Source of the DNA: Physcomitrium patens
Taxonomy: Eukaryota; Streptophyta; Bryopsida; Funariales; Funariaceae
Direction of reading: 5' to 3'
Length of the DNA stretch: 64,000 nucleotides
Assembly: GCF_000002425.4 (NCBI RefSeq)
Contig: NC_037275.1
Span: 8,888,450 to 8,952,449, forward strand
Of this stretch, positions 23,451-61,151 are shown in pieces (the first letter of the stretch is position 1; each line of letters begins with the position of its first letter). The translations under genes and the position numbers were made by a program. Under the pieces are notes generated by a model, which was not told where the DNA came from, ran no database searches, and saw nothing but the letters and a program-made list of their open reading frames with translations.

Positions 23451-24502
23451 ATAAGGGTGTAAAGGTGTCAGTTTTGGCTGTTGGTGGGGGATGGAGAATC
23501 GACAAATGAATAATTGAGGGGGTGGATAAACTGACCCATCTGTTTGTTAGGCTGTGAACCTCGTGCCGAGTGGATTGGATACCGCCTCTTCTTCAGGCTC
23601 TTTCATGCTTATATCCTCTCGCTTCTACTCACCGCAACACTAGCAGGGTCGTTTTGCACTTGCCTCTGTCTCTCACATGTCGTGGTTCGATTTAACAAGG
23701 TTGTTTGTTATCTTGCATGTTTGTGCCTTCGATTCATACAGAGGATGCCAACGTAGATTTATCACTTCTTTTTTTTCAGTTTTGCTGCTGAGATATCTTG
23801 TTCCAGGGGGTTTTACCTTGTGTTGTGAATTTTTCTTATCAGTTGTATGTTGTAGATGGCTTAGCTTGTGACCTTACTGAAATGCAAGTAATCTTAGCAT
23901 CAATGTCTATGTAAAAGAATTTGGTCGTGATTTTGAGATCCACACCTACCTCATTTTGGTGTCATTTAAAGGACTTTGATTTAAAAGAGATGTTCCTTGG
24001 CTATTTGTAATTGCATCAAGCTTAAGTTGTATCATTAAGAACAATAATTTCTGTTTATGCATAAAAGAATGAGAAGTAGTTGATTGTAAAAAAAAAAAAA
24101 AGATATTACATTTTACCTTGCATTTTTAAAATTAACTAAAGCACTTCATTACATTTATTTATTTATATTTAATAACCATTGAACAATTGATACAAAAATA
24201 AAATTATATGTTTTGTTATTCTAAAATTATTTTATATAAAATAGAATATATAATAATAAAGATAATAAGGTATATATATACACACATACATATATACAAT
24301 TAAATATGTGCTAAATAAAATAAGTTATTGCAAAGATATGTATTAATTGACATAGGGTATTAAATATTAGATTATGGAGAGGTTCCATACAATGATGTGC
24401 AACTTTTTTCCTTCCACTAAACAACTTCTTTCTTCCCTCTAAATCTGCAACTTTACCTCACTTTTAGACCTCTTCGTTTTGGTAAATTTCTCTTCTTTCA
24501 AC
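23451..24502. other. Intergenic, becoming AT-rich
   Basis: No gene was recognised. Two frames at 23544-23756 and 23677-23871 are Cys/Leu-rich and short without homology that I can see. The remainder is AT-rich sequence leading into the decayed retrotransposon. Confidence 0.55.
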
Positions 24503-24993
24503 TATCAAGGACAAGAACTCAAAGAATATATATCAAAGAGAGTTGACAAAAAAAAAAAAAAAAAAAAAAAAAAATGCATATTCAAGAAGAAATTAGAATA
24601 GCTATTGCTAAAAACTAAAAAATTAGAGATTCTTGAAACTAGATTTAGAAGTAAGAAAGGAATTGATAAAAGTGTAAAAGGTCTCATTCTTCTATATATA
24701 TAAGAGCTATGTGACAATGTTCTATAAGATCTCCAATACATATGCAACTTATGCTACATATGTCTAACTTGCAAGGCAAGTTTCATATATGTGTGCTATA
24801 TAGCCAACTTGTAACACAAGTGACTAATATGTACAACTTGTGGCTAAGTTTTTAACCTATCAATCACTTACATACATGTATAAAATAAAATCCACATCTA
24901 TGAAGTTTTTTTATAATATATTATCAAATTTACTTATTTCTATTTACTTCTACTTAAATCCTCTAATCTAAATAAATATGCATATCCATAATA
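24503..24993 (-). repeat. 3' LTR of decayed element C
   Basis: It begins tatcaaggacaagaac, the decayed form of the TGTCAAGGACAAGAAC LTR end of the related elements, and follows them through ttgcaaggcaagtttc and cttacatacatg to a TTACCTCC polypurine-tract complement at about 24994. Confidence 0.65.
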
Positions 24994-25319
24994 TTACCTC
25001 CTTTTTTAGGACAAGTTCTACAAGAAGTCATAATTACATGTTGAAGAAGTTTAAGATGTGACAAATTGTAAATGCCACATACTTCAATCTATATTCTTTT
25101 CAAAGGTAGTTGATAAGTTTTCTTAGTCATTAATAGTGTCTTATATCAAGATAGTAAGCTAACCTTGTTATTTAATTATTATTAAGGCTTTCATAATTTT
25201 CTTCACATAATTTTTTTTGAATACCATTAAGAATTATTCTTACTTCCAATAATTTTACTAGATTTCAAAAATTTCTTCTAAGATTGTGATATTAAACACA
25301 TTGGATCTTGCCATCAATT

Positions 25320-25354
<35 letters not shown>

Positions 25355-25775
25355 ATTTTTGAGAGTCTTCATCTCTATTATATTATTTTGAAGGTTGTAA
25401 CAATTTCAATGTCTCATTTTCTAACTAAAAAAATACTAGCTTTTAAGTTAAATCTATTAGTTATTGCTTTTTATCTTCTCAGTACTACAAATATATAAAA
25501 AGATGGAATATAAACTTCATCAAACATGTATTCTTTTATAGCAAAGTTTTTCTTGACTCTTTATTTTGGTTTGATGGATGTTATTGGTAAAAAGTATTCA
25601 CCTTTCCTATTGTATTTGCAAAATTCTTAAATGGCTCCCATGTTCATTCATTACTATCATATTTGAACCATTGTATAAAATATTATAACTTATTTTAGTG
25701 CTGCTTGAAATCAAAATTTCTTGTACCTCAAATTTTTAATTGTTCTTTACTTCTATAGGAAGAAGTGGAATTTGT

Positions 25776-25807
<32 letters not shown>

Positions 25808-26612
25808 TTTTTGTTTTTTTGTTTTATATATATTCATTGTCTTATATGGCTCAAAAAAAGATATATGAAATACAAAATGAATCTTTATAAAGTTTGATAG
25901 GTGTAATTAATATACAATTGACTTGATCTATTCACAAATAAAAAATGGTCTAAATCTATACTAATTTAACTTGTTACAAAGATAAATAGTCTTGAGATTA
26001 CTAGACAATAATCATATCTTGTTGCAAACATGTTATTGAAGTTATTCCTTGCAATAGGCATTTATATATATTTTTTGTTATTTTTGAGATTTTTTTTTAT
26101 TTTTTCCTTCTTAAGGCATACAGTTCTAATAAATATTTTTTCAAATCTTTTGCCACATGATTATGAAGTTTTGTAAAGTCAAAAGTATCAAGTTGTAGAT
26201 AATAATCATAATTAGCATAAAATGGTGACAATTGAATAGAAGAATGTAATATATTATTGTAAGTGGATTCTACTAATGGCAAAAGATTTGTCTAATCATC
26301 TTGATGATAGTTCATGGTATACCTCATATATTGCTCCAATATTTGATTTATTCATTTTGTTTGTCTATCACTTTAAGAATGAAAAACCAAAGATAGTTTT
26401 ATATCCACCTTCAATATCCTCAAAAGAGTTTTTTAAAATTTATATACAAATTGAGTTTCTTTATTTGATATAATATCCTATGGCAATCCCTAATAGCAAT
26501 AAATATTATTGAGAAAACATTTAGTCGTTTCTTTATGTGTGATGGATTTTTTACATAGTACAAAATATGCCATTTTAATGAAACAATCTACTATCACAAA
26601 TATAGAGTCATA

Positions 26613-26709
26613 AGAACTTGAGATTGAAAGATCCATGATTATATATACCAAAAGTTTCAAGGTCTTCAAGAACTTGAGATTGAAAGATCTTGGTACTTTT
26701 GGTATATAT
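26613..26709. repeat. Local direct duplication with 15-bp inverted repeat inside element C
   Basis: A 21-bp word occurs at 26613-26633 and again at 26669-26689. A perfect 15-bp inverted pair (26641-26655 and 26695-26709) flanks the second copy. The sibling elements have only one copy, so this arose after insertion. Confidence 0.75.
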
Positions 26710-28600
26710 AGTAGGTAAAAAAGTCCATAAGATCAATGATAAGGAGTTTTTGATTCTAAAGTAATATCAAATGATTTCATAAAGTCTTTAAGTTTTTTTT
26801 TACATTTGAGACCACTAAAAATATTTTGAGTTTAATTTAAAAGTCCCATTGTATCTAAAATATCATGTAATTAGAAAGTTATGATGAGTTTAAGTAGCTT
26901 GTAATCATGCTTTGCTTTCTAAAACATACAAATATTCATCAAAATATAATAGATTATTCTTGAATTCAAACTTAGAAGGATCATGAGATTTAGAAGACTT
27001 TTTTTTAATATAATAAATAAGAGGATTTAAGGACATATTTGATTGAACTTAATAAAAAAAAGTTGAATCAATAGTCAATATTGATTTCATTGTTCAAAGA
27101 TGAAATTTCTTTGGCTTCAAAAAAATAATATGTTGCTGATCAAAAATTGCATCTCTTTGTTTTGGCACTAAATAAGACTATTTAAAAAGAACATTTGACA
27201 AACTTTATTTTTTCTAATCAATAAGTGATAATGAATACAAATATTGATATAAACATGTTCTAACAAGCTTCTTGATAATTTAATATGCATATTGATAGAA
27301 AATACTTGAAGTTCTTATATTTTGTGCAAATAATCTTTACATCAAATGTACCTTCTAGATAATGATGTCATTTTAAAAATAATTATATAATTGCAAGAAG
27401 ATCTTTGTTGTGGATCTTATAGTTAATTTCAAAAATTGAAAATTTTCTTAAATAAAAATTTACTAGATGAAGTTTTTATTTTTTCCTATTCAAAATAATT
27501 TTGCATCCAAAATAAAGTCTAATACATCTATTTTTATAAAAAATATCATAAAAAAGTCAATATAATAGAAGATTGGTATAGAAATAAAAGTTGTCTTTAA
27601 AGATTCAAATATCATTTTAGCTTCTTTATTCTATTCAAATTTGTCTTTACAAGTCTAATGTATAAAAAAAGCTACAATAAAAATAAAAAAAATTAAAAAA
27701 GATTTAATAGTAATTAAAAAATTAATAAAAATATTAAATATCTTTTACTATTTTTTAAATCTTCCAATCTATGATAGTCTAAAATTTCTTCGAATCCATT
27801 ATAAAGCCATCATTTGAAATAATATATCATAAGAAGTCAATTTATTGTTTGAAATACGTACTTCTTTATCTTAACATATAATCTTATATCTTTAAGTTTT
27901 TATAACACATAAAAAATATAAAGCTTATATTTTATATTTTTAGAATATATTAAAATATCATCTATATAATTAACAATAAAATCATCTAAATATTTTTTAA
28001 AAAAATCATTTATTACATATTAAAAAGTAGCTTGTACATTTGTGAGTCCAAATAGAATAACATTGTATTTAAAATCCCTATACCTTATTCAAAATATAGT
28101 CTTTTATTTATCTTCTTCTTTAGTACATATCAAATTGTATGTTCTTTGTAGATATATTTGTATATAGAATTTATTTTGAATTAGTTGATTGAAAAGTCAT
28201 AATATCAAAGATAAAAGATACATAGTTTTAATGGTAATCTTATTGGACCTTCAAGAAACTACACACATCCATAGTAACCTTTTTTTTTCTTCACAAACAA
28301 GATATAAGCTCTTTTTGTAAATATTGAATAGTGTATGAAGTGCTTAGCTAAATTCTCATCAATGTATTTCTTGAATTTAGCCAATTCACTCTATGATAAA
28401 GTGTAGATTAATCCAAATAGTAGTTGTATTCCTTTTTGAAGATCAATTAAATAATCATAAAGACAATACTTTGGAAGAATTTTTTTTTAAGAAATAACTT
28501 AACAAAATTGATATTGATTTAGAATATTACTTGAATTTTTTTTATTGCTAGAAATGGATATGGCATAAAAATATAAGTAAAATCCTTCTTGATAACATCA

Positions 28601-30201
28601 CTCTTTTCTTATTTAATATGAGATTTAAAATATATTGTGCCAATTTGCATGTCTTTTTCTTCTAAATGTAAATATTAAAAAGATATTGGTGTTGCCATTG
28701 AATTACAAAAAAAATGAGACCTACTTGTACAACTCTTAAATTGAAATTCAAAAAGCTAATTGTTGCATTTTATAGCAAAGTAAATTAATTAATTCAATGT
28801 TTAAAAATCAAATAAGTTCAACATCAACTTTCTTTTTTTATATTATAAATCGTAATAAAATTGGTTGACAAGTTTAATATTATTCTACTTGATATTAGTA
28901 ACAAGTTATTAGAATTGTAAAGCATATAATGTTGTTCACTTTTTAATATGTAATAAATAATATTTTTAAAGATATTTTGATCCTTTCATGCTATACATTG
29001 GTAAAAGGAGAAGTCACCTTATTAAGACTTGATAGAAACTAAGACTTAATTTTGGCACAAAATCTTTAATCACATGATTTTTTTATATTATTTTTGGTGA
29101 TTGTACTATTATATAGTCAAGAGTCAGATTATTGCATATATTAGTGAATATTGATTATTTTTGGAGTAAATCAAGAAGATTGAAAGAAATATATTTTTAC
29201 TAATTGTGTACAATTGTTTTTGGTAGATTTTTGATCTATATATGAAAAATATTATGCAATTTGTGTTGCAACCAATAAGATTTTTATTTTTTTATTAATC
29301 AAGTTAATAAAAAAAATTTCGTCTGTGTATCGTCGTCGTCATGGCGTTTCGTCCGACGATCTTCTTTGTTGTCGTCAGAACTTTTCTTCTGAGGATCTTC
29401 GTCGTCATCGTCATGACGTTTCGTCACGGACTAATGCTAAGCCCTAATCATAAAAAATAAAAATAAAAAATGTCTTCTTTAGCAAACCAACTACACATGA
29501 GTTTCAAAGTTTTTCATTAGTTTTTTTTTATGAATAATTCTTAAAACATCACGAAATTTTCTAATATCGTAAGATTAATTTGAACACATGAAAGTCATTG
29601 ACAGCCAAAATTGTATAGTCTAAGATGTCATTGATGCAAGTTTTGTGACAAAATTAGTTATACATTGTTTTAAAATTGTATAATATTATACAATTTTTTG
29701 AATGCTGAAGTAGTTTTTCTGGTTTGAAATTATTTCAGGTTTAAAAAGTATATTTTTAAAAATAGTTTCGAAATAATCTAATTATGAGTTTTTTCTTAAT
29801 ATAACTAAAAATAATTTAAAAAATACATTATGTTATTACACCAATAAAGTAAACTTATTGTTCCTTAAAGAAAATGGATTTATGTAAGTTTAAATATTTT
29901 AACATATGTTTTTCTTAAGAAAAAATATATAGTATAATTCTAATAGATTATTTTTGATTTTCACGACATGTTTGAAAATAAATGTAACTATTGCATTTAA
30001 ATGGATTTATTTTATAATTTTACAGTTGATGTTTGATAGGGATTTTTTTTATTAGTTTGACTAATTTACACATTTTACAAAAAAAATTGATTATTTTTTA
30101 ATATACCTTAATAAATATATGAAATTAATTAAATGTGATGCTCAAAGTCTCTTACATGTACATTAATCTCTTTTATAAATATTATTTAAAAGAGTAACTT
30201 G

Positions 30202-45869: not shown

Positions 45870-47047
45870 ATTGCATAATACTTTATATCAATTACTTCCA
45901 TTTTAATCCTCTCTTTTATGAAGTGATGTTGAATGTCAATGTACTTGGTCCTTGAATGATACTTTGGATTTTTTTGTAAATATAAGACATCCTTGATTAT
46001 TATATTCTATTGAAGTTGCTTCTATTTGTACTACTCCAATATCTTCTAAAAGTTGTCTTAGCCATATTACATCCATTACACCATGCTTGCTACCATGTAC
46101 TCCCCCTCCATTATTAACCTTATAATTCAGGGTTGTCTATTATAATTCCATAAAATAGTTCCTATTCCAATAAAGAATACATATCTCGTTGTTGACCTTC
46201 TATCATTTGCATTTCCACCCTAATCCACATCATAATGACCATGCAAAATAATGTTATTACCTCCAAAGCGCAATTTGAAATGCAAAGTGCCTTTTAAATA
46301 CTTCATGATCTTTTTGATGGTTGTCCCATAGATTTATTCAGCTTTTGCCATGTATTGACTTACAACACTCATTGCATATACAAGATCCATCTTTGTGCCA
46401 ACCATTACATATATAAGTGAACATACTGTTGTTTTATATGAAACACCTTGTATTTGACGTTCAACTTTAACAAACTTTTCATTTGTGACCTTCATCAACT
46501 TCAACAAATTCTTCATCCATGACCTTCATCAACTTCAAATTGGTCTCCAAAGGTGTATCTATAGACTTACACTCTTCTATGTTGAATCATTTCAACACAA
46601 CTTCAATGTACTTACTTTGATTCATTGTAATGGTCTCCTTAATATGATTTCTTACAAACTCCATTTCTAAATAATAATAAAGCTCTTCTAAATCACTCAT
46701 CTTATACTCTTTTTCTAACTTTGCCTTCAACCAATCCATCACCTTCAAGGTATTAGTTAAGATGATCAAATTATCAACACATAAGATAACATTTAATATA
46801 AATTTATATTAAAATTTTATATATAGAATGATCAATATTACTTCTTTCAAAACCTTTATTCACAAAGAATATATCAATACATTAGTACCATATCTTTCGT
46901 GATTGCTTAAGCCAATATAAAGATTTCTTCAATTTACAAATAAGATGTCGTTTTCATTCTTCAACAAATCCTTGAAGTAGATCCATATAGAGGTCATCTT
47001 CTAACCTTCAATTCAAAAAAATTATCTTTACATCCATTTGATATATC
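45870..47047 (-). mobile_element. Decayed Ty1/copia element fragment (RT-RNase H), minus strand
   Basis: On the minus strand, 46587-46769 keeps a copia RT block with KEYKMSDLEELYYYLEMEF and MNQSKYIEVVLK. 46334-46516 keeps CSLIYVMVGTKMDLVYAMSV. About 45905-45970 reads NPKYHSRTKYIDIQHHFI, the copia RNase H end. Near 46890-47047 QMDVK and SLYWLKQ motifs are visible with frameshifts. It is cut at 47047 by insertion of element H in the RT domain. Its LTRs were not found. Confidence 0.8.
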
Positions 47048-47605
47048 TGTCAAAGACAAGAACATGATAAAAACAAATAAACAAGTGAGACTTCTCTCAA
47101 AGAAAGATGACAAAATAAAAATAATTTGATATGTATATTAAGAAAGAAACTGGAATGGATATTGCCAAAAACCAAGAAAACTAAAGACCCTTGAAACTAG
47201 ACTGGAAGCAAGAAAGGAATTGACAAGAATGAAGAAGGCTTCACTCTTGTTTCTATATATACTATCTAATTAGGGATTATGTGGCAACGTTCTATAGGAT
47301 CTCTAATATGTGTTGACTTTGTAGGACACATGCCTTGACTTACAAGGCAAGTTTTTCTACATGTTGGCAATATAATTAGCTTAATCTTCAAGCTAACAAC
47401 ATGTGTGGCACATGGCCAACTTGTTGACCACGTTTCTAATCCAAAAAGTCAATTAAAGACACCTATAAAGTCAAAGCAGTGTCTATGAAGCTTCTAGAAA
47501 GCTTCTATAGCAAATACTATAGAATTAACTTATATTTATCTACTTTTACTTACTTCTATCTATTTATATATGTAATTATTGGCTTACATGCGTATGTCTA
47601 TGATA
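47048..47605 (-). repeat. 3' LTR of element H
   Basis: It reads TGTCAAAGACAAG at the left and ...GTCTATGATA at the right, the decayed counterpart of the TGTCATGG...TTGACA LTR of element A read on the other strand. Length is about 558 bp. It contains a perfect trimeric heat-shock element GAAgcTTCtaGAA at 47487-47499. Confidence 0.75.
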
Positions 47606-48069: not shown

Positions 48070-48262
48070 CTCCTTAGCGTCACAACTACAAAGAAGCTAC
48101 AAACAAAGATTGAAAGTAGAATGTTATCTTGCTTAGATCTTGATTCTTCTATAAAGAAGGTTTTCATCTTGATTTTGATAGATGTTGTTGATGAAAAGCC
48201 TCTACCGCCTTTGTTGCATTTGCAAGATTCTTTACTAGCTCCCATGTGCGTTTATTAATATC

Positions 48263-48822
48263 TGTCATGGCCATAATCATGTAAGCTAATAATTACATAT
48301 AGAAATAGGTAGAAGTAAGTAAAAGTAGGTAAAAGTAAGTTAATTCTATAATATTTAATATAGAAGCTTCTTAGAAATTTCTTAGACGCTGCTTTGACTT
48401 CATAGGTGTCTTTAATTGACTTTTTGGATTAGAAACGTGGTCAACAAGTTGGCCATGTGCCACACATGTTGTTAGCTTGAAGATCAAGCTAACTATGTGG
48501 CCCACACGTAGAAAAACTTGCCTTGTAAGTCAAGGCATGTGCCCTACAAAGTCAACACATATTGGAGGTCCTATAGAACGTCGCCGCGTATCCCCTAGTT
48601 AGAGAGTATATATAGAAACAAGAGTGAAGGCTTCTTCACTCTTGTCAACTCCTTTCTTGCTTCTAGTCTGTTTCAAGGGTCTCTAGTTTTCTTGTCTTTT
48701 GGCAATAGCCATTCCAGTTTCTCTTTCAATATATATACTTGTTTATATATATTTTGTTACCTCTCTTTGAATGAATTCTCACTTGTTTGAATTATTTTTT
48801 CATCGAGTTCTTGTCCTTGACA
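48263..48822 (+). repeat. 5' LTR of element A (LTR1)
   Basis: 560 bp with TGTCA...TGACA ends. Its TATA box is at 48607-48614. U3 carries a partial heat-shock motif (GAAgcTTC at 48363-48370). It is visibly closer to LTR3 than to LTR2. Confidence 0.9.
48607..48648 (+). promoter_or_regulatory. LTR core promoter and predicted 5' end of element A RNA
   Basis: TATATATA at 48607-48614 places transcription start near 48637-48642. CACTCTTGTCAA (48637-48648) lies exactly there and is the perfect complement of the bases just inside the LTR. A hairpin ACAAGAGTGAAG/CTTCACTCTTGT surrounds the same point. LTR3 keeps the 12-mer; LTR2 has one change. Confidence 0.6.
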
Positions 48823-48824
48823 GA

Positions 48825-48836
48825 TTGACAAGAGTG
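48825..48836 (+). promoter_or_regulatory. Putative self-complementary primer binding site of element A
   Basis: TTGACAAGAGTG begins two bases after the LTR end. There is no TGG-starting tRNA complement here. It pairs perfectly over 12 bases with the predicted RNA 5' end, as in Tf1-type self-priming elements. Confidence 0.55.
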
Positions 48837-49034: not shown

Positions 49035-50039
49035 ATGGCAGAGCTTGTTGAAATGAAGAGTGCAATGGCACAAATGTAAGAACAATTGAGGGAGTTAATG
49101 CTTGCGATGCATCAACTCAATTCACCAACACAGGAAAGAACAAGAATAGCAGAAAGTGGAGATATAGAGATGATCGGAGCTGCTTCAACATCTACAACAA
49201 ATCACGTTCCTTCTCCAATTATACAACACCCTATAAGCACTAGAGAACCAAGAATTACCTTACCTGAGAAATTTGATGGTACGAGATCAAAGTTTTGAGG
49301 GTTCATCAATCAAGTACAATTGGCAATTGAACTTCAACCGCAAAGCTATTCAACTCCAGGATCACAAGTCAGGTTTATTGGCACTCTACTTTCTGGTTCT
49401 GCATTATCATAGTTTTCGTCTTTTCTTGAACAATGAAATCCAATATTGGAGAATTTGGAAGCTTTTTTGGTGGAGTTTAGATCTATGTATGGTGAATACG
49501 ATGCAACTCGTATTGCAACAAATAAGATTCGAATTCTGCGACAAGGAAATCGCTCAGTAACAGTATATGCTTCACAATTTCGACAACTTGCAATTGACAT
49601 CAAGTGGGATGATGCTGCACTCATCAGTCAATTTCTTTATGGATTGCAATACGAAGTAAAGAAATTGATGCTCAACTTACCTAATCCTCAAACTTTGAGT
49701 CAAGCAATCGATTTTGCGATAAAATGTGATAATCGACTTTTTGAATTTCGATCCGAGAATCATTCATGGGAACCTCAACGTTATTACTCAATGGCAACAT
49801 CAACATCTTTGCCAAACGTACATTCAGAAGTAGAAGACATGCAAATTGACGCGGTACGTTTTAAACCCCTAACTGAGCAAGAAAAGATTCGCCGTCGTCA
49901 AGAAGGATTATGTTTATATTGCGGAGAACCTAAGCACACTGGTCAACATTGTCCAAAGAAACGACGCAACTATAAAATGAGGGGTACGATGGTCAAAGAA
50001 GACAACATGTCGGAAAACGGATTCGTCCAGCTACAATAG
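49035..50039 (+). pseudogene. gag: gag of element A, interrupted by four stop codons
   Basis: The frame from ATG 49035 to the stop at 50037-50039 encodes a nucleocapsid-type Gag. It ends with a CCHC zinc knuckle (CLYCGEPKHTGQHC, about 49910-49951), which binds element RNA in the virus-like particle. Four premature stops lie in frame at 49077-49079, 49296-49298, 49410-49412 and 49434-49436; there is no frameshift within gag. The first three are explainable as C:G to T:A transitions. pol follows at 50045 in the -1 frame, with an open overlap from about 49990. In relatives gag and pol are often one frame, so this could be a frameshift signal or a 1-nt indel. Confidence 0.85.
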
Positions 50040-50044
50040 GGACC

Positions 50045-53000
50045 GTGCAGCTGGAACCTTGTACAATTCCTAATGAAGGTCCTATCTTCTCGTCAGAACC
50101 CTCTCCTTGTTTTATAATAGACTTATATTTAGGACCTAAGAATTACAAAGCCTTTGCTTTATTAGATTCGGGAGCCTCAGCATGTTTTTTAGATGAACAA
50201 TTTGTTAAAAGTTGTAAAATATCCTTTGTACAGAAACCTAAACCAGTACATGTAGAAGTCATAGATGGTCGTCCCTTGTCTTCTGGAGATGTCACTCATG
50301 AAACTCATCCTATAAAAGTAACAATAGACGGTCATGATAGCTACATAGCTTTTAACATAATTAAATCCCCGTCCAATCTAGTTATTTTAGGTTTATCATG
50401 GCTAGAAAAATATAACCCTCGAATAGATTGGAATTCGCATAAACTTGACTTTTCCCAAAGCGTTATTAATAATTCTACCAACCAAGTAAAAAATTATAAG
50501 TCTAGTACAGTAAAACCCGTACTGATAGGTGCAAAAGCATTTATACACGCAGCAAAAGAAGGATCAACTTTTGCTATTTATGCTGCACCTATTTCTGAAA
50601 ACGTAAAGACTTCAATTGGCATTCCAAGTCAATATCACGAGTATCAAGACGTTTTTGAAAAAAAGAATGCAGATATTCTTCCTAAGCATCGCCCATATGA
50701 TTGTTCTATCGACCTCAAGGAAGGAACTCAGCCACCATTTGGACCAATTTACAATTTATCGCAAGATGAGATGGCTGAACTCGAGACATATATTGAGAAG
50801 AATTTAGCAAAGAATTTCATACGCCATTCAAAATCTCCAGCAGGAGCTCCAATTCTATTCGTAAAGAAAAAAGATGGATCTTTACGAATGTGTGTTGATT
50901 ATCGAAGACTCAACAAGATCACAATCAAGAACAGGTATCCATTACCTTTGATATCAGGACTCCTTGATCAGTTGAATCAAGCTAAGATCTATACAAAAAT
51001 AGATCTAAGAGGAGCATATAATCTAGTACGGATCAAAGAAGGAGATGAATGGAAGACTGCCTTTCGAACCAGGTATGGACATTTCGAATATAATGTCATG
51101 CCCTTTGGACTCACGAATGCACCAGCTGCTTTTCAACATCTCATGAATGATGTATTTCGTGAATTCTTAGACAATTTTGTAGTCTGCTATCTAGACGATA
51201 TCCTGATCTATTCTAAGAACGTCGAAGAACATGAAATATATGTTCGTCAAGTATTACAAAAACTTAGAGTTGCAGGATTGTACGCCAAGATGGAAAAGTG
51301 TGTATTTCACACTACTCAAGTTGACTTTTTAGGATACATCATTTCAAATGATGGTCTCATGATGGATTCTAAGAAAGTCCAAACAATCATGGATTGGAAG
51401 ATTCCAAGGACAGTAAGAGATGTCCAATGTTTCTTGGGATTTGCCAATTACTATTGGATCTTCATCAAAGATTTCTCACGAGTTGCAGCTCCACTTACAC
51501 GCTTGACTAGTAAAGATAAATTCCAATGGAATCAAGAAGCGGAAGCAGCATTTGAAGCCTTGAAGACATCGTTTGTCTCTGCACCAGTCTTATATCGTGT
51601 TGACTTTTCCAAGGCATTTTTTATGGAAATAGATGCATCAGATTTTGCCTTGGGTGCAGTTTTATCACAAATGGGATCAGATGACAAACTTCATCCGATA
51701 GCTTTTCATTCAAGAAAATTCTCAGCAGCCGAGATCAATTATGAGATCCACGATAAAGAACTTCTTGCGATCGTGGATTCCTTTCAAGCATGGCGTCATT
51801 ATCTAGAAGGCGCTTCTAGTCCAGTCACTGTGTATACAGATCACAAGAACCTCGAGTATTTCATGTCAGCATGCGTGTTGAATCGTCGTCAAGCTCGTTG
51901 GAGTATGTCTTTGTCAAGATTCGAGTTCATTATCACTTATCGGCCAGGAAAACAACAAGGTTTGTCCGATGCATTGTCTAGACGTTTTTATTTTGTACCA
52001 AAAGAAGGAGATGCAGCTTTTGAGCAACAAAGAATGGTCCTCTTGAAATCGGAGCAATTTCATCTCCGAGCAATGAAATCAACATTGAGTGTTGATTCAA
52101 CTTTTCTCAAGCAAATCCAGTCCAGTATGTCCTTAGATCCTCTTGTTTATGATATTGAGAATAATTCTTCCAAGTCTCATGATTCTTCTAAGTTCGAGTT
52201 CAAGAATAATCTATTATATTTTGAAGGACGCCTATATGTTCCAGAAGGAGAAGCACGTTTACGTGTTCTTCAAGCATGTCATGTCTTTCCAACAGCAGGG
52301 CACTTTGGATATAATAAGACTTTGGAACTCATATCAAGAGATTTTTGGTGGCCACAAATGTGGAAGTCAGTCAAAGACTTTGTACAATCATGTGATATTT
52401 GTTCAAGATCAAAAATTCCTCGTCATCGACCTTACGGACTTTTTCAGCCATTACCTATACCAGAACGACCATGGTCTTCTGTTTCTATGGATTTCATCAC
52501 AGATCTTCCAAGCTCAAGATCTTATGATTCTATATTTGTGATAGTAGATCGTTTCACCAAGATGGCACATTTTGTGCCATGTATAAAATCTATCACAGGT
52601 GAAGAAACAGCTAAGCTTTTCATTGATAATATCTATCGCTATCATGGATTATCTAAAGATATCATATCAGATAGGGGAACTCAATTTGTGTCAAGATTTT
52701 GGAGGACCCTTTTCAAGATTTTAAAAGTGGACATAAAGCTATCTTCGGCTTTCCATCCTCAAACTGATGGACAAACAGAGCGCGTAAACTAAGTCTTCGA
52801 GCAATATTTAAGGTGTACTATCAACTACCAATAAGATGATTGGACAATCCTTTTGCCATTGGCAGAGTTTGCTTATAATAATACGGTACATTCTTCCACG
52901 CAACAAACACCTTTCTTTGCCAATTATGGCTATCATCCACGACTTGATACTTTTGATTTTTCAAAAGTTGATAATCCTGCAACAGAAGATATGGCAAATC

Positions 53001-53534
53001 GGTTGTCAAAGTTACATGCAATAATGAAGACGCAATTGAAGGAAGCTCAAGAACGACAAAAGATAAACGCAGATCTTTATCGTAAAGAGCAACCAGAAAT
53101 CAACGTGGGTGATAAGGTATGGCTACTTCGTCGCAATATCAAGACTACTCGACCTTGTGACAAGTTGGACTATCGTAGGCTTGGCCCCTTTTTCAGTTTC
53201 TGAACAGATCAACCCAGTTGCATATCGGTTACATCTACCGGAGTCAATGAAGATCCATCCTGTATTCTACGTGTCTCTTCTTGAACCATATAAGACAGTG
53301 GATATACAAGGAAGAAGACAAATGCCACCGCCTCCTATAGAAGTAGATAATAATGAAGAATTTGAGGTGGAAGAGATATTAGACTCAAGGCGGCGCCAAA
53401 ATAAGCTGGAATATCTTGTTCATTGGCGCGGATATGATATTAGTGAATGCACATGGGAGCCATCTAGGAATCTAGCAAATGCATCAGCTAAAGTCAAAGT
53501 TTTTCATCAACGACATCCATCAAAATCAAGATGA
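50045..53534 (+). pseudogene. pol: pol of element A: protease, RT, RNase H, integrase, chromodomain; one stop and one frameshift
   Basis: Residues are counted from 50045. Aspartic protease DSGA at 41-44. RT from about 260 with the YLDD active site near 382. RNase H with IDASDF near 528 and TDHKNLEYF further on. Integrase with its His/Cys zinc domain near 740-780, then MDFITDLP and SDRGTQFVSRFW catalytic blocks. A C-terminal chromodomain follows (about 53360-53530, EYLVHWRGYD and CTWEP). A TAA at 52790-52792 ends the first 915-residue frame. The same frame resumes to 53203, where an extra T in a T run near 53190 shifts it. The chromodomain then reads on to the stop at 53534. A chromodomain usually steers integration to particular histone marks. 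Product activity is doubtful as it stands. Confidence 0.92.
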
Positions 53535-54092: not shown

Positions 54093-54644
54093 TGTCACGG
54101 CCATAATCATGTAAGCTAATAATTACATATAGAAATAGGTAGAAGTAAGTAAAAGTAGATAAAAGTAAGTTAATTCTATAATATTTAATATAAAAGCTTC
54201 CTAGAAACTTTCTAGATGCTGCTTTGACTTCACAGGTGTCTTTAATTGACTTTTTGGATTAGAAACGTGGTCAACAAGTTGGCCATGTGCCACACATGTT
54301 GTTAGCTTGAAGATCAAGCTAACTATGTGGCCCACACGTAGAAAAACCTGCCTTGTAAGTCAAGGCATGTGTTCTACAAAGTCAACACATATTGGAGGTC
54401 CTATAGAACGTCGCCACGTAGCCCCTAATTAGATAGTATATATAGAGACAAGAGTGAAGGCTTCTTCAGTCTTGTCAATTCATTTCTTGCTTCTAGTCCA
54501 GGTTCAAGAGTCTTTAGTTTCTTGTCTTGTGGCAATAGCCATTCCAGTTTCCTTTTCATATACCTACTTGTTTATATTTTGACTTACTATATCGAGATAG
54601 CCTTTTTGTGTATATTTTCCCTCATTGAGTCTTTGTCCTTGACA
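54093..54644 (+). repeat. Central LTR (LTR2) shared by A and B
   Basis: 552 bp, TGTCACGG...TTGACA. It is the most divergent of the three, especially over its last 90 bp. It is followed at once by pol sequence (CATTCCAAG) instead of a primer site. Confidence 0.9.
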
Positions 54645-57559
54645 CATTCCAAGTCAATATCAGGATTATCAAGACGTTTTTGAGAAAAAAAATGCAGATA
54701 TTCTTCCTGAGCATTGCCCATATGATTGTTCTATCGACCTCAAGGAAGGAACTCAGCCACCATTTGGACCAATTTACAGTTTATCAAAAGATGAGTTGGC
54801 TGAACTTAAGACATATATTGACGAGAATTTAGCGAAGAATTTCATATGCCATTCAAAATCTCCAGTAGGAGCTCCAATTCTATTCGTAAAGAAAAAAGAT
54901 GGATCTTTGTGAATGTGTGTTGACTATCGAGGACTCAACAAGATCACAATCAAGAACAGGTATCCATTACCTTTGATATCAAGACTCCTTGACCAGTTGA
55001 ATCAAGCTAAGATTTATACAAAAATAGATCTAAGAGGAGCATATAATCTAGTACGAATCAAGAAAGGAGATGAATGGAAGACTGCGTTTCGAACCAGGTA
55101 CGGATATTTTGAATATAATGTCATGCCTTTTGGACTCACGAATGCACCAGCTGCTTTTCAACATCTCATGAATGATGTATTTCATGAATTCTTAGACAAT
55201 TTTGTAGTCTGCTATCTAGACGATATCCTGATCTATTCTAAGAACGTCGAAGAACATGAAATATATGTTCGTCAAGTATTACAAAAACTTAGAGTTGCAG
55301 GATTGTACGCCAAGATGGAAAAGTGTGTATTTCACACTACTCAAGTTGACTTTTTAGGATACATCATTTCAAATGATGGTCTCATGATGGATTCTAAGAA
55401 AGTCCAAACAATCATGGATTGGAAGATTCCAAGGACAGTAAGAGATGTCCAATGTTTCTTGGGATTTGCCAATTACTATTGGATCTTCATCAAAGATTTC
55501 TCACGAGTTGCAGCTCCACTTACACGCTTGACTAGTAAAGATAAATTCCAATGGAATCAAGAAGCGGAAGCAGCATTTGAAGCCTTGAAGACATCGTTTG
55601 TCTCTGCACCAGTCTTATATCGTGTTGACTTTTCCAAGGCATTTTTTATGGAAATAGATGCATCAGATTTTGCCTTGGGTGCAGTTTTATCACAAATGGG
55701 ATCAGATGACAAACTTCATCCGATAGCTTTTCATTCAAGAAAATTCTCAGCAGCCGAGATCAATTATGAGATCCACGATAAAGAACTTCTTGCGATCGTG
55801 GATTCCTTTCAAGCATGGCGTCATTATCTAGAAGGCGCTTCTAGTCCAGTCACTGTGTATACAGATCACAAGAACCTCGAGTATTTCATGTCAGCATGCG
55901 TGTTGAATCGTCGTCAAGCTCGTTGGAGTATGTCTTTGTCAAGATTCGAGTTCATTATCACTTATCGGCCAGGAAAACAACAAGGTTTGTCCGATGCATT
56001 GTCTAGACGTTTTTATTTTGTACCAAAAGAAGGAGATGCAGCTTTTGAGCAACAAAGAATGGTCCTCTTGAAATCGGAGCAATTTCATCTCCGAGCAATG
56101 AAATCAACATTGAGTGTTGATTCAACTTTTCTCAAGCAAATCCAGTCCAGTATGTCCTTAGATCCTCTTGTTTATGATATTGAGAATAATTCTTCCAAGT
56201 CTCATGATTCTTCTAAGTTCGAGTTCAAGAATAATCTATTATATTTTGAAGGACGCCTATATGTTCCAGAAGGAGAAGCACGTTTACGTGTTCTTCAAGC
56301 ATGTCATGTCTTTCCAACAGCAGGGCACTTTGGATATAATAAGACTTTGGAACTCATATCAAGAGATTTTTGGTGGCCACAAATGTGGAAGTCAGTCAAA
56401 GACTTTGTACAATCATGTGATATTTGTTCAAGATCAAAAATTCCTCGTCATCGACCTTACGGACTTTTTCAGCCATTACCTATACCAGAACGACCATGGT
56501 CTTCTGTTTCTATGGATTTCATCACAGATCTTCCAAGCTCAAGATCTTATGATTCTATATTTGTGATAGTAGATCGTTTCACCAAGATGGCACATTTTGT
56601 GCCATGTATAAAATCTATCACAGGTGAAGAAACAGCTAAGCTTTTCATTAATAATATCTATCGCTATCATGGATTATCTAAAGATATCATATCGGATAGG
56701 GGAACTCAATTTGTGTCGAGATTTTAGAGGAACCTTTTCAAGATTTTAAAAGTGGACATGAAGCTATCTTCGGCTTTCCATCCTCAAATTGATGGACAAA
56801 CAAAGAGTGTATACCAAGTCTTGGAGCAGTATTTAAGGTGTACCATCAACTACCAATAAGATGATTGGACAATCCTTCTGCCATTGGCAGAGTTTACTTA
56901 TAATAATACGGTACATTCTTCCACGCAACAAACACTTTTCTTTGCCAATTATGGCTATCATCCACGACTTGATGCTTTTTATTTTTCCAAAGTTGATAAT
57001 CCTGCAGCAGAAGATATGGCAAATCGGTTGTCAGAGTTACCTGCAATAATGAAGACGCAATTGAAGGAAGCTCAAGAACGACAAAAGATAAATGCAGATG
57101 TATATCGTAAGGAGCAACCACAACTCAACGTGGGTGATAAGGTATGGCTACTTCGTCGTAATATCAAGACCACTCATCTTTGCGACAAGTTGGACTATTG
57201 AAGGCTGAGACCAATTTCTTATTTCTGCACAAATCAATCCAGTTGCATATCGTTTACATCTACCGAAGACAATGAAAATCCATCCAGTATTCCACGTGTC
57301 TCTTCTTGAATCATACAAGACAGTGGACATACCAAGAAGACGACAAGCTCCACCTCCTCCTATAGAAGTGGACAATAATGAAGAGTTTGAAGTAGAAGAA
57401 GTCTTAGATTCAAGGCGGTGCCAAAATAAAATAGAATATCTTGTCCGTTGGTGCGGATATGATATTAGTGAATGCACATGGGAGCCAATGAAGAATCTTG
57501 CAAATGCAGCAAAGGCGGTGGAGGCTTTTCATCGACGACATCCATCAAAATCTAGATGA
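54645..57559 (+). pseudogene. pol: Truncated pol of element B (RT to chromodomain)
   Basis: B starts abruptly at the position equivalent to 50620 of A, so primer site, gag and protease (about 1.8 kb) are deleted. RT, RNase H and integrase follow in one 604-residue frame, 54913-56727. By direct comparison with A, the in-frame stop at 54910-54912 is CGA to TGA and that at 56725-56727 is TGG to TAG. A further frameshift lies near 57200, and the chromodomain is at about 57380-57559. From 55185 to 56649 the sequence is the same as A, by eye, over 1,465 bp. Outside that block the copies differ every few dozen bases. Only copying in trans could mobilise it. Confidence 0.9.
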
Positions 57560-57653
57560 AAACCTTCTTTATAAAAGAAACAACATCTAGGCAAGATAAC
57601 ATTCTACTTTCAATTCTTGTTCGTAGCTTCGTTGTAGTGGTGGCGCTCAGGAG

Positions 57654-58076
57654 ATGGAGAACCAACAACTAACGGATTTAACTGAAGAGCCTTCATTTGC
57701 TGACCTGTGAGATGAGACATTACGATTGTCACAACCTTCAAGACGACGCAATCGAGATGAAGATCTTCAAGAACAACATGTTCTTCCTCGAATACATGGT
57801 GAGATACAATGTGTTTGGTATCACGATTTGGGAAGGGACTCCCGATGTTTGGTGATTTTGCTAGAGGTAGGAACAACTCCTGATGATGTTCCAAATATTC
57901 TATTCGAAGGAAGTTACGAAGGCCTCAACAATGACCAAATAACTGGGTGGTCTTCCCGCCCTGGTATGGGACACTACCGATGGTTGAGAGGCCCTATCAA
58001 TCATCTTCGAAGAGAACAGAGATCAGAGTATGTGGCGAATACAATTCATCGCATCATAGATTTCCTCAACATATGA
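57654..58076 (+). pseudogene. Extra ORF (ORF3) of element B, one in-frame stop
   Basis: Same length and position relative to pol and LTR as in A. A TGA at 57708-57710 (codon 19) is the only break; a downstream Met-less frame of 116 codons continues to the stop at 58076. The GHYRWLRGPINHLRREQ block is unchanged from A. Confidence 0.8.
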
Positions 58077-58117
58077 TGACCGCTCCTCGTGGAACTCGTC
58101 CCTAGAAGGGGGGGTAA

Positions 58118-58677
58118 TGTCATGGCCATAATCATGTAAGCTAATAATTACATATAGAAATAGGTAAAAGTAAGTAAAAGTAGGTAAAAGTAAGTTAATT
58201 CTATAATATTTAATATAGAAGCTTCTTAGAAATTTTTTAGACGCTGCTTTGACTTCACAGGTGTCTTTAATTGACTTTTTGGATTAGAAACGTGGTCAAC
58301 AAGTTGGCCATGTGCCACACATGTTGTTAGCTTGAAGATCAAGCTAACTATGTGGCCCACATGTAGAAAAACTTGCCTTGTAAGTCAAAGCATGTACCCT
58401 ACAAAGTCAACACATATTGGAGGTCCTATAGAACGTCACCACGTAGCCCCTAGTTAGAGAGTATATATAGAGACAAGAGTAACGGCTTCTTCACTCTTGT
58501 CAACTCTTTTCTTGCTTCTAGTCTGTTTCAAGGGTCTCTGGTTTTCTTATCTTTTGGCAATAGCCATTCTTGTTTCTCATTCAATATATATACTTGTTTA
58601 TATATATTTTGTTACCTCTCTTTGAGTGAATGCTCACTTGTTTGAATTATTTTTTCATCGAGTTCTTGTCCTTGACA
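58118..58677 (+). repeat. 3' LTR of the array (LTR3)
   Basis: 560 bp, TGTCATGG...TTGACA, preceded by AGAAGGGGGGG (58104-58114) and followed by the ATATC target duplicate. It is very similar to LTR1. Confidence 0.9.
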
Positions 58678-58682
58678 ATATC

Positions 58683-60754
58683 ATATCCGTGCTTATGGAT
58701 AAGATATTTCACTTTATTTCGATGCAACCTTGAATCTAAGACTTCTTCCACTTTAAACTCTTCATTATTGTCCACTTCTGTAGAAGAAGGTGAAGCTTGT
58801 CTTCTTCTTGATATGTCGACTGTCTTGTATGGTTCAAGAAGAGATACGTGGAATACTGGATAGATTTTTATTGACTTCGGTAGGTGTAAACAATATACAA
58901 TTGGATTGATTTGTATAAAAATAGAAAATGGTCCAAGCCTTTGATAGTTCAACTTGTCACAAGGTCGAGTGGTCTTGATATTACGATGAAGTAACCATAT
59001 CTTATCACCTATGGGGAATGGTAGTTGTTCCTTTCGATAGACATCCGCATTGACCTTTTGTTGTTCTTGAGTTTCTTTTAACTATGCATTCATCGTTGCA
59101 TGTATCTCTGACAAATGAATTGCCAAATCTTTCTCACTAAGATTATTAACTTTTGAAAAGTCAAAAGTATCAAGTCGTGCATGATAACCATATTTAGCAA
59201 AGAAATGTGTTTGTTTTGTAGAAGAATGTATCGTGTTATTATAAGCAAACTTTGCCAATGGCAAAAGAGTTGTCCAATCATCTTATTGGTAGTTAATGAT
59301 ACATCTTAAATATTGCTCCAAAACTTGATTAACACACTCTGTTTGTCCATCAATTTGAGGATGGAATGCTGAAGATAGTTTTATATCCACTTTTAGAATC
59401 TTGAAAAGAGTTTGCCAAAATCTTGATACAAATTGAGTTCCTCTATCTGATATAATATCCTTGGATAATCCATGATAGCGATAGATATTATCAAGAAAAA
59501 GCTTTGTTGTTTCTTCACTTGTGATAGATTTTGTACATGGTACAAAATGTGCCATCTTGGTAAAATAATCTACTATTACAAATATAGAATTATAAGAACC
59601 TGAGATTGAAAGATCCGTGATGAAGTCCATAGAAACAGAAGACCATGGTTGTTCTAGAATGGGTAATGGCTAAAGAAGTCCAAAAGGTAAATTACGAGGA
59701 GTTTTTGATCTCAAGTCAACATCACAAGATTGTACAAAATCTTTGATTGCTTTCCATATTTGGGGCCACCAAAAGTCCCTAGATATTAGTTCCAAAGTTT
59801 TATTGTACCCAAAATGTTCTGGTGTTGGAAAGTCATAATGAGCTTGAAGAATATGTAATAGAGCTTCACCTTCTAGAACATATAGGTGTCCTTCAAAATA
59901 TAGTAGATTGTTCTTGAATTCAAACTTGGAAGTATCATGAGACTTTGAAGGATTTTTCTTAATATCACGAATAAGAGGATCAGAAGACATACTTGATTGA
60001 ACTTGCTTAATGAAAGTTGAATCAACAGTTAGTGTTGATTTCATTGCTCGAAGATAAAGATGCTTTGGCTTCAAGAGAATTATTCGTTGTTGATCAAAAG
60101 CAGCATCTTCTTATTTTGATACAAGATAAGATCGTCTAGAGAGTGCATCTGACAAACCTTGTTGTTTTCATGGTCGATAAGAGATCTTGAATTCGAATCT
60201 TGACAAAGACATACTCGAATGAGCTTGGCGACGATTCAAAACACGTATTGACATAAAATATTCAAGATTTTTGTGATCCGTATATACTATGACTAGGCTA
60301 GAAGCACCTTCTAGATAATAGTATCATTTTTAAAATGAATCTATGATTGCAAGAAGTTCTTTATCGTGGATCTCGTAGTTGATCTCGACTGCTAAAAATT
60401 TTTTGGAATGAAAAGCTATTAGATGAAGTTTATCATCTATTCCCATTTGTAACAATACGATATTCAAAGCAAAGTCTGATGCATCTATTTCCATAAAAAA
60501 TGGCTTAAAAAAATTAACGCGATAGAAGATTGGTGCAAAAACAAAGGTTGTCTTCAAAGCTTCAAATGCTACTTTTACTTTTTGATTCCATTGAAGTTTG
60601 TCTTTACAAGTCAAACATATAAGTGGAGCTGTAACTTGGGAGAAGTCTATGATGAAGATCTGATAGTGGTTGGAAAATTTCAAAAAGCATTGGACATCTG
60701 TTACCATTTTTTGCGATCTTCCAATCCATAATAGTTTGAACTTTCTTAGGATCC
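58683..60754 (-). pseudogene. pol: pol of element H, right segment (chromodomain to RT), minus strand
   Basis: On the minus strand the order from right to left is RT/RNase H (60800-60330), integrase zinc region (60074-59670), integrase core (59630-59283, MDFITDLS and SDRGTQFVSRFW), integrase C terminus (59264-59082) and chromodomain start (58952-58683). Multiple stops and frameshifts show that it is dead. It resumes exactly where the left segment stopped at 48262. It is cut at 60754 by element K, inside the RT-connection region equivalent to A residues near 450. Confidence 0.85.
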
Positions 60755-61151
60755 TGTCACGGACACAGAATACAGACTTGATATCTACCAAGAAGTTCAA
60801 GAAGAACTGACAAGAACTGGATTAATCGGATGAATACAAGAACAACACCAAAGAGGTGAGCTAGAGCTCCAAGAGATGTGTTGTCGAGACTGAAGAACTC
60901 TTCAGCCTTGATCTCAATATATACTCCTATTTAAGAAGCTTCTCAAGCAACTTCTACCAACTAGGAAGCTTCTAGAAGGTTCCAGAGACCTTCTTCTAGA
61001 AGGTTCTAGAAACTTATCTCTAGAAGGTTCTAAGGACTATGTCCCTAACATCTTCTACCAACTAAGAAGCTTCTAGAAGGTTCCAGAGACTTGCTTCTAG
61101 AAGATTCTAGAAGCTTGTCTCTAGAAGGTTCTAAGGACTATGTTCCTAACA
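60755..61151 (-). repeat. 3' LTR of element K with 101-bp internal tandem duplication
   Basis: 397 bp, TGTCACGG...CCTAACA on the plus strand. Two about 101-bp units (60951-61051 and 61052-61151) form the U3. On the minus strand the TATA-like GTATATATTGAG (about 60913-60925) and CTTAAATAGG (about 60926-60935) follow the repeats. Confidence 0.9.
60965..61131 (-). promoter_or_regulatory. Cluster of perfect heat-shock elements in the LTR U3 of element K
   Basis: Four tetrameric elements of alternating GAA and TTC with exact 2-bp spacing lie at 60965-60982, 60994-61011, 61066-61083 and 61095-61112. Two dimers lie at 61023-61030 and 61124-61131, with another at 60935-60942. The consensus nGAAnnTTCnnGAAn is bound by trimeric heat-shock factors. 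The array ends about 40 bp upstream of the TATA box. Confidence 0.8.

Follow-up and report, generated by a model that had tools for sequence, protein, structure and literature searches.

How does a retrotransposon begin reverse transcription when no tRNA-type primer binding site (PBS) follows its 5′ long terminal repeat (LTR)? The question is raised by element A, a chromodomain Ty3/gypsy retrotransposon located within a 64-kb stretch of the 470-Mb genome of the moss Physcomitrium patens. The whole of this stretch was analyzed and is referred to as the window. A preliminary description of the window had proposed that A primes from the 5′ end of its own RNA and that this would be a surprise for a plant chromovirus. 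The mechanism is supported by covariation and by a forecast that came true for a relative of A, element K, whereas the novelty among plant chromoviruses is not supported. Taken together, the data presented here make it highly probable that A is a moss Tcn1-type chromovirus (Tf1/sushi group) that self-primes from about position 48638 with an 11-nt RNA primer, and that an arm in U3 pairs in addition with part of the primer sequence, through which it may lock the 3′ copy. Published work is cited throughout from excerpts of the articles named.

Layout of element A and its surroundings

The features of A and its neighbors are listed below in window coordinates.

48258-48262, no strand: 5′ target site duplication of A, ATATC; the same 5 bp are found at 58678-58682
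48263-48822, + strand: 5′ LTR of A, 560 bp, TG...CA; 540 of 560 positions match 58118-58677
48607-48614, + strand: TATA box of A, TATATATA, 30 nt ahead of 48637
48618-48629, + strand: U3-side arm of the U3/R hairpin, located past the TATA box and ahead of the predicted RNA start; pairs and covaries with 48634-48645
48634-48645, + strand: second arm of the hairpin, the final 4 nt of U3 and the initial 8 nt of the predicted primer
48638-48648, + strand: predicted 5′ end of the RNA, with the self-primer of 11 nt, 31 nt past the start of the TATA box; the 12-nt match is 48637-48648
48823-48824, + strand: spacer of 2 nt between the LTR end and the PBS
48825-48835, + strand: putative PBS, complementary to the predicted RNA 5′ end; 48836 is the twelfth pair in A
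49446-50039, + strand: gag ORF piece of A (Retrotrans_gag)
50045-52792, + strand: pol ORF of A (protease, RT, RNase H, integrase)
53109-53534, + strand: ORF of A with integrase tail and chromodomain (PF00385, E 3.9e-17)
54093-54644, + strand: middle LTR of A, fused straight to pol; its own PBS and gag are missing
58118-58677, + strand: 3′ LTR of A; U3 arm at 58473-58484, primer-sequence copy at 58492-58503
47045-47603, - strand: 3′ LTR of the older element B; primer-sequence copy at 47220-47231
60755-61151, - strand: 3′ LTR of K; 12-mer CAGTCTCGACAA at 60881-60892; the 5′ LTR and PBS lie outside the window (locus L013)

Element B, an older relative on the minus strand, hosts the insertions of both A and the third relative, K. 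The target site duplication of K, GATCC, is found at 60750-60754 and is repeated next to the K 5′ LTR in L013. The two LTRs of K correspond to 60755-61151 and to 2593-2989 of L013; in the 3′ LTR a unit of about 101 bp is present twice, head to tail (60941-61142), and BLAST suggests that the same repeat is present in the 5′ LTR. Element A is a tandem LTR-internal-LTR-pol-LTR array with a single flanking duplication. Within its part at 54093-58677, the middle LTR terminates in CA and joins pol at the equivalent of 50620. Such LTR tandem arrays are described as common in plants (PMC11899658).

A further older relative on the minus strand, D (24494-28933), is approximately 66-69% alike to A in the longer matches and has an inverted piece at 29217-29282. 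It carries a decayed primer sequence at 24674 without a PBS pair. The window also contains a TOD1/MUCI70 gene, whose nearest named protein among the matches listed is from the moss Ceratodon purpureus (70%). An Rfam scan and a tRNA scan of the window were both empty. Genome-wide, a first look gave 4912 candidate copies of A, of which 40 were scored and found to be 96-100% alike.

A match between the PBS and the predicted RNA start

The preliminary description had based self-priming on a 12-base complementarity placed downstream of the TATA box. Letter for letter, 48825-48836 is the exact reverse complement of 48637-48648, and the TATA box TATATATA begins at 48607, 30 nt upstream of 48637. The match had also been called unlikely by chance; it is real, yet taken alone it is moderately rare, as runs of at least 12 were obtained in 4 of 5000 dinucleotide shuffles of the A LTR and, when 3830 20-mers taken from other parts of the window served as mock primer sites, at four of these. 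The weight of the argument rests on position and covariation. The position is regular, with 30 or 31 nt from the TATA box to primer position 1 at 23 of 28 sites and 30 nt in all 38 young A copies read. In all 12 copies, 2 nt separate the PBS from the LTR, which terminates in CA in nine of them and in TA in three.

The 12-nt pairing is present in A, whereas the length conserved across diverged copies is 11 nt (48638-48648 with 48825-48835). A primer of 12 nt was rejected because the outermost (twelfth) base is unpaired in 9 of 12 diverse copies and paired in only three, even though most young A copies (33 of 38) do have this pair. Judging from the sequences, a self-primer of 11 nt is more likely.

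As had been described, A has no TGG-type tRNA complement, with no TGG in the 14 nt 3′ of its LTR. The search for such a match in relatives, which the preliminary description had suggested, gave a similar result; by the canonical CCA-complement rule, TGG is missing from the 14 nt after the LTR in 11 of 12 copies, the exception being the copy in L032.

Covariation of primer and PBS across copies

The covariation sample consisted of 324 kb of the P. patens genome (the window, L013-L033, and L040-L044). It contains 28 primer-sequence sites and 12 PBS sites, which form 11 pairs; a PBS-like site in L025 is without a primer partner. The twelfth pair comes from L001, a contig filed under a cyanobacterial MAG (GTDB), which we take for eukaryotic contamination. 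The RT encoded by L001 is 78% identical to that of A, and in the first 1500 bases of this diverged relative the primer/PBS pair is the sole inverted repeat of at least 10 nt at a spacing of 60-700 nt.

The same MAG contains the retrotransposon contigs L001, L003, and others (L007-L012), apparently through contamination by a eukaryote; L007 is a shorter cut of the L001 contig. A nearly identical retrotransposon is present in both L004 and L005, which are filed under Neobacillus and Shewanella. No primer/PBS pair was found in loci L002-L012, and the inverted repeat of L002 looks like LTR ends. The viral contigs searched yielded no relatives, and the pattern search gave six matches.

In A, the primer and PBS read ACTCTTGTCAA with TTGACAAGAGT. 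The corresponding pair is AGTCTCGACAA with TTGTCGAGACT in L001, K, and L022 and ACTCTTATCAA with TTGATAAGAGT in L015, while B carries a matched C-to-T/G-to-A change plus one mismatch. Letters have thus been altered on both sides with pairing kept at 11 of 11 positions in L001, K, and L015 and at 10 of 11 in B. Over 11 nt, six of the 12 pairs are perfect, five have one non-Watson-Crick position, and one, the second L021 copy, is decayed with just 5 of 11 positions paired. Unmatched or wobble positions are found in L017, L021 (two copies), L032, L041, and B, in a pattern that decay would give. Summed over the 12 pairs, Watson-Crick pairing is seen at 121 of 132 positions as compared to a mean of 105.7 with the PBSs permuted, a value reached by 101 of 200000 permutations (155 of 200000 when G-U is counted), both figures ignoring kinship. 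Double changes occur at four primer/PBS positions, and the changes are concentrated on few lineages. The comparison of the two sites across copies, proposed in the preliminary description, therefore revealed paired changes, in favor of self-priming.

The window, L001, and L013-L033 were also searched for an LTR-end motif followed by two bases and the 11-mer, which yielded 37 matches having no more than one mismatch. The six perfect matches all sit behind a TATA box in elements of A's group, and those with one mismatch are mostly chance. Among young A copies (39 high-scoring copies, of which 38 were readable and L076 was left out), 33 of 38 keep 11 of 11 pairs and five have one change. These copies are nearly identical and therefore add little independent evidence. 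Element K provided a forecast. The 12-mer reported downstream of its TATA box on the minus strand is present at 60881-60892, and the primer site predicted from it, before that site had been seen, was borne out by TTGTCGAGACTT after the K 5′ LTR, a match of 11 of 12.

Two other explanations of the match were weighed against self-priming. One is that A uses a tRNA with an unrecognized complementary site and that the 12-base match is incidental. The canonical CCA-complement rule that was applied here does not span every moss tRNA, the L032 copy does carry TGG, and SM-Tcn1 of Selaginella is reported with neither a tRNA site nor a self-priming site recognized (PMC2864245). The lack of TGG in the other 11 copies points the other way, as does the PBS, which covaries with the LTR where a tRNA complement would stay fixed; we consider this explanation very improbable. 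The other is that the match arose once and persists only through the youth of the copies, for which one may cite the four long runs among 5000 shuffles and the 96-100% likeness of the 40 scored matches. The altered primer letters of L001, K, L015, and B, which nevertheless match their PBSs, make chance with shared descent the least probable of all the explanations considered. Self-priming of A, a mechanism of a known kind, is thus very likely.

Element A is on the Tcn1 side of the chromoviruses

An RT tree of 20 rows places A, L001, and their relatives with fungal (Tremellales) and vertebrate rows, and a split with 100/100 support sets this group apart from two Closterium rows and three angiosperm rows, all of the latter from Asteraceae. 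The rows carry no clade-labeled reference (Tf1, Tcn1, Reina, CRM, or Galadriel), and the tree does not settle positions inside A's group. A placement of A among angiosperm-type chromoviruses was rejected by this tree. Most of the 120 matches listed in a search with a piece of pol are without an organism name; those named are mainly from frogs and fish, while a Tremellales fungus and Tanacetum contribute one match each and Closterium two. The chromodomain of A is at the end of the integrase. Its cage residues, read by eye with no alignment computed, are F, W, and Y, the first being F for Y, with the aromatic-cage positions of the group I chromodomain taken from PMC3350952.

Judged by its RT sequence, A belongs with the Tf1/sushi (Tcn1) elements and is not a typical plant chromovirus. 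Self-priming had been presented as a surprise for plant chromoviruses, a view that is not supported for an element on the Tcn1 side, as self-priming of plant Tcn1 elements has already been predicted (PMC6317226).

A conserved hairpin joins U3 to the primer sequence

In A, 48618-48629 and 48634-48645 form a 12-bp hairpin with a 4-base loop, which joins U3 to the primer sequence and whose right arm holds the first 8 of the 11 primer letters. The hairpin was counted at 28 sites (27 from this genome and L001; the L017 site is cut off). At these sites, 284 of 336 positions are Watson-Crick paired, or 309 of 336 with G-U, and this pairing was reached by 0 of 20000 shuffles. Four decayed sites were left out of the covariation alignment, and in the remaining 24 sites 94.9% of cells are paired, as compared to 42.7-48.2% when the arms are slid. 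Double-change cells number 18 against a shuffled mean of 6.6, and 0 of 500 shuffles reach 18; two coarser measures are unexceptional, being reached by 42 and 339 of 500 shuffles. Columns 33/50 are G-U in seven of eight K-type rows and A-U in the eighth, L041. Such a G-U pairs in sense RNA and is a mismatch in a DNA palindrome, which favors sense RNA.

Among the young A copies, the hairpin is full in 32 of 38, with 11 of 12 pairs in three and 10 of 12 in three. The 3′ LTR of A itself has two mismatches (10 of 12 paired), and the hairpin of L015 is weak, folding no better than shuffles. As a conserved pairing, deduced from the alignments, we regard the hairpin as real. No description of a U3/R hairpin, or of a lock on the 3′ copy, was found in excerpts of the open-license literature, whose coverage of Tf1 is thin and makes this a weak absence.

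An RNA start upstream of the hairpin was rejected, the left arm beginning 11 nt past the start of the TATA box. If the RNA start at about 48638 is right, the 5′ end is without the left arm and only the 3′ LTR copy can form the hairpin. Binding energies to the PBS were predicted for 8 of the 12 pairs, with short pieces modeled and the 5′ LTR standing in for the 3′ LTR; under this scheme, all eight elements tried favor the free 5′ end over the armed 3′ copy, with a margin between 2.9 and 10.6 kcal/mol. Our plausible but still tentative proposal is that the U3 arm is a lock that hides the 3′ copy of the primer sequence. Which primer end is chosen would then be decided by a switch built into the RNA, and selection would maintain this switch while copying re-matches the primer site.

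Other roles of the hairpin must be set beside this proposal. The hairpin could be a DNA palindrome, that is, a promoter element or factor-binding site at the start of transcription, with the PBS match partly a by-product. Its location between the TATA box and the start, at the near-fixed spacing noted above, is in keeping with such a site. However, the families differ in arm letters while the pairing persists, the G-U pairs at columns 33/50 would be mismatches in a palindrome, the primer/PBS pairing reaches 3 nt past the hairpin, and the double change at primer/PBS position 8 of L015 is unmatched by the hairpin arm, all of which render this role unlikely. The U3/R border of a retroviral 3′ LTR, where the hairpin is located, is a known site of 3′-end formation, dimerization, packaging, and strand-transfer functions. 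A 3′-end RNA element with one of these jobs (3′-end formation, dimerization, packaging, or first strand transfer) rather than a lock is possible, if rather doubtful, and the competition for the primer site that distinguishes a lock comes from predicted energies. On the other side, the arm spans 8 of the 11 primer letters and weakens predicted PBS binding in every element tried, neither of which the other roles need.

Predicted leader folds

Unforced folding covered leaders from 9 of the 12 pairs. The primer/PBS helix of A appears in the 223-nt minimum-energy fold, where a second duplex adjoins it, and is absent from the 247-nt fold. The minimum-energy fold of L001 contains the primer helix, whereas that of K does not. 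In slightly longer leaders the complete helix forms in five of nine, with 10 of 11 pairs in B, and the longer folds of A, K, and the L021 copy are without it. Averaged over the helix, the pairing probability is 0.9 or higher in just four of nine leaders, and the unforced folds differ among copies.

Discussion

In the mechanism that we favor, A is transcribed from about 48638, a start deduced from the TATA spacing. What the analysis shows are the pairings with their covariation, the phylogeny, and predicted energies; RNase H cutting, priming, and what the hairpin does are, like the start, inferred. The first 11 nt of the RNA, whose complementarity is observed, would fold back onto the PBS 2 nt beyond the 5′ LTR. 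The RNase H of the element would cut after nucleotide 11, and the released short RNA would prime minus-strand DNA. A new PBS would be copied from the primer, so that both sites would be re-matched in every cycle; joint changes and sharp edges of the pairing would follow from this. The U3 arm, which lies ahead of the predicted RNA start, pairs with nucleotides 1-8 of the primer sequence. Provided that this start holds, the arm is present only in the 3′ LTR copy of the RNA, and it may lock that copy and leave the true 5′ end for the PBS.

The closest known systems are the Tcn1-clade chromoviruses of mosses and clubmosses (REXdb; PMC6317226, PMC2864245), which like A are chromodomain Ty3/gypsy elements of non-seed plants on the Tf1/sushi side. 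Most Tcn1-clade elements have no tRNA site and are predicted to prime themselves, which sets them apart from the other plant chromovirus clades (PMC6317226). Covariation, primer length, and a hairpin were not found in the excerpts of PMC6317226 and PMC2864245, and A differs from SM-Tcn1, for which the latter reports no recognizable self-priming. In Tf1 of fission yeast, the first 11 bases of the RNA are complementary to the PBS, a feature that Tf2, Tj1, and Tosmo1-3 share with A (PMC7175516). Tf1 and its relatives also resemble A in a PBS adjoining the 5′ LTR and in having a chromodomain (PMC10085805). The three-duplex "pretzel" of the Tf1 leader (PMC10085805) receives weak support from the varying leader folds obtained here, and unlike in A, a U3/R hairpin was not found described in the excerpts of PMC7175516 and PMC10085805. 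Priming of Tf1 has an experimental basis, whereas that of A is deduced. TAR-lineage Ty1/copia elements belong to a different superfamily from A and are without a chromodomain. Members of this lineage (Houba, Osr-1) are, like A, plant LTR elements for which self-priming is predicted (PMC6317226).

RLG1, the dominant chromodomain gypsy family of P. patens, has 5092 complete copies (PMC7466625), as compared to the 4912 first-look candidates for A. Expression of RLG1 in protonema is also reported there. Based on copy number and source genome, rather than on RLG1 sequence, A would belong to the RLG1 family. The excerpts of PMC7466625 make no mention of a PBS or self-priming.

With these results, a published prediction of self-priming for plant Tcn1 elements is now backed by covariation and by a forecast that was confirmed; the family concerned numbers thousands of candidate copies in a single moss genome. 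The hairpin also poses a question not encountered in the excerpts cited, namely what keeps a self-primed RNA from using the primer copy at its 3′ end. If the PBS is rewritten from the primer, the pairs of LTR and PBS would constitute a natural record of priming.
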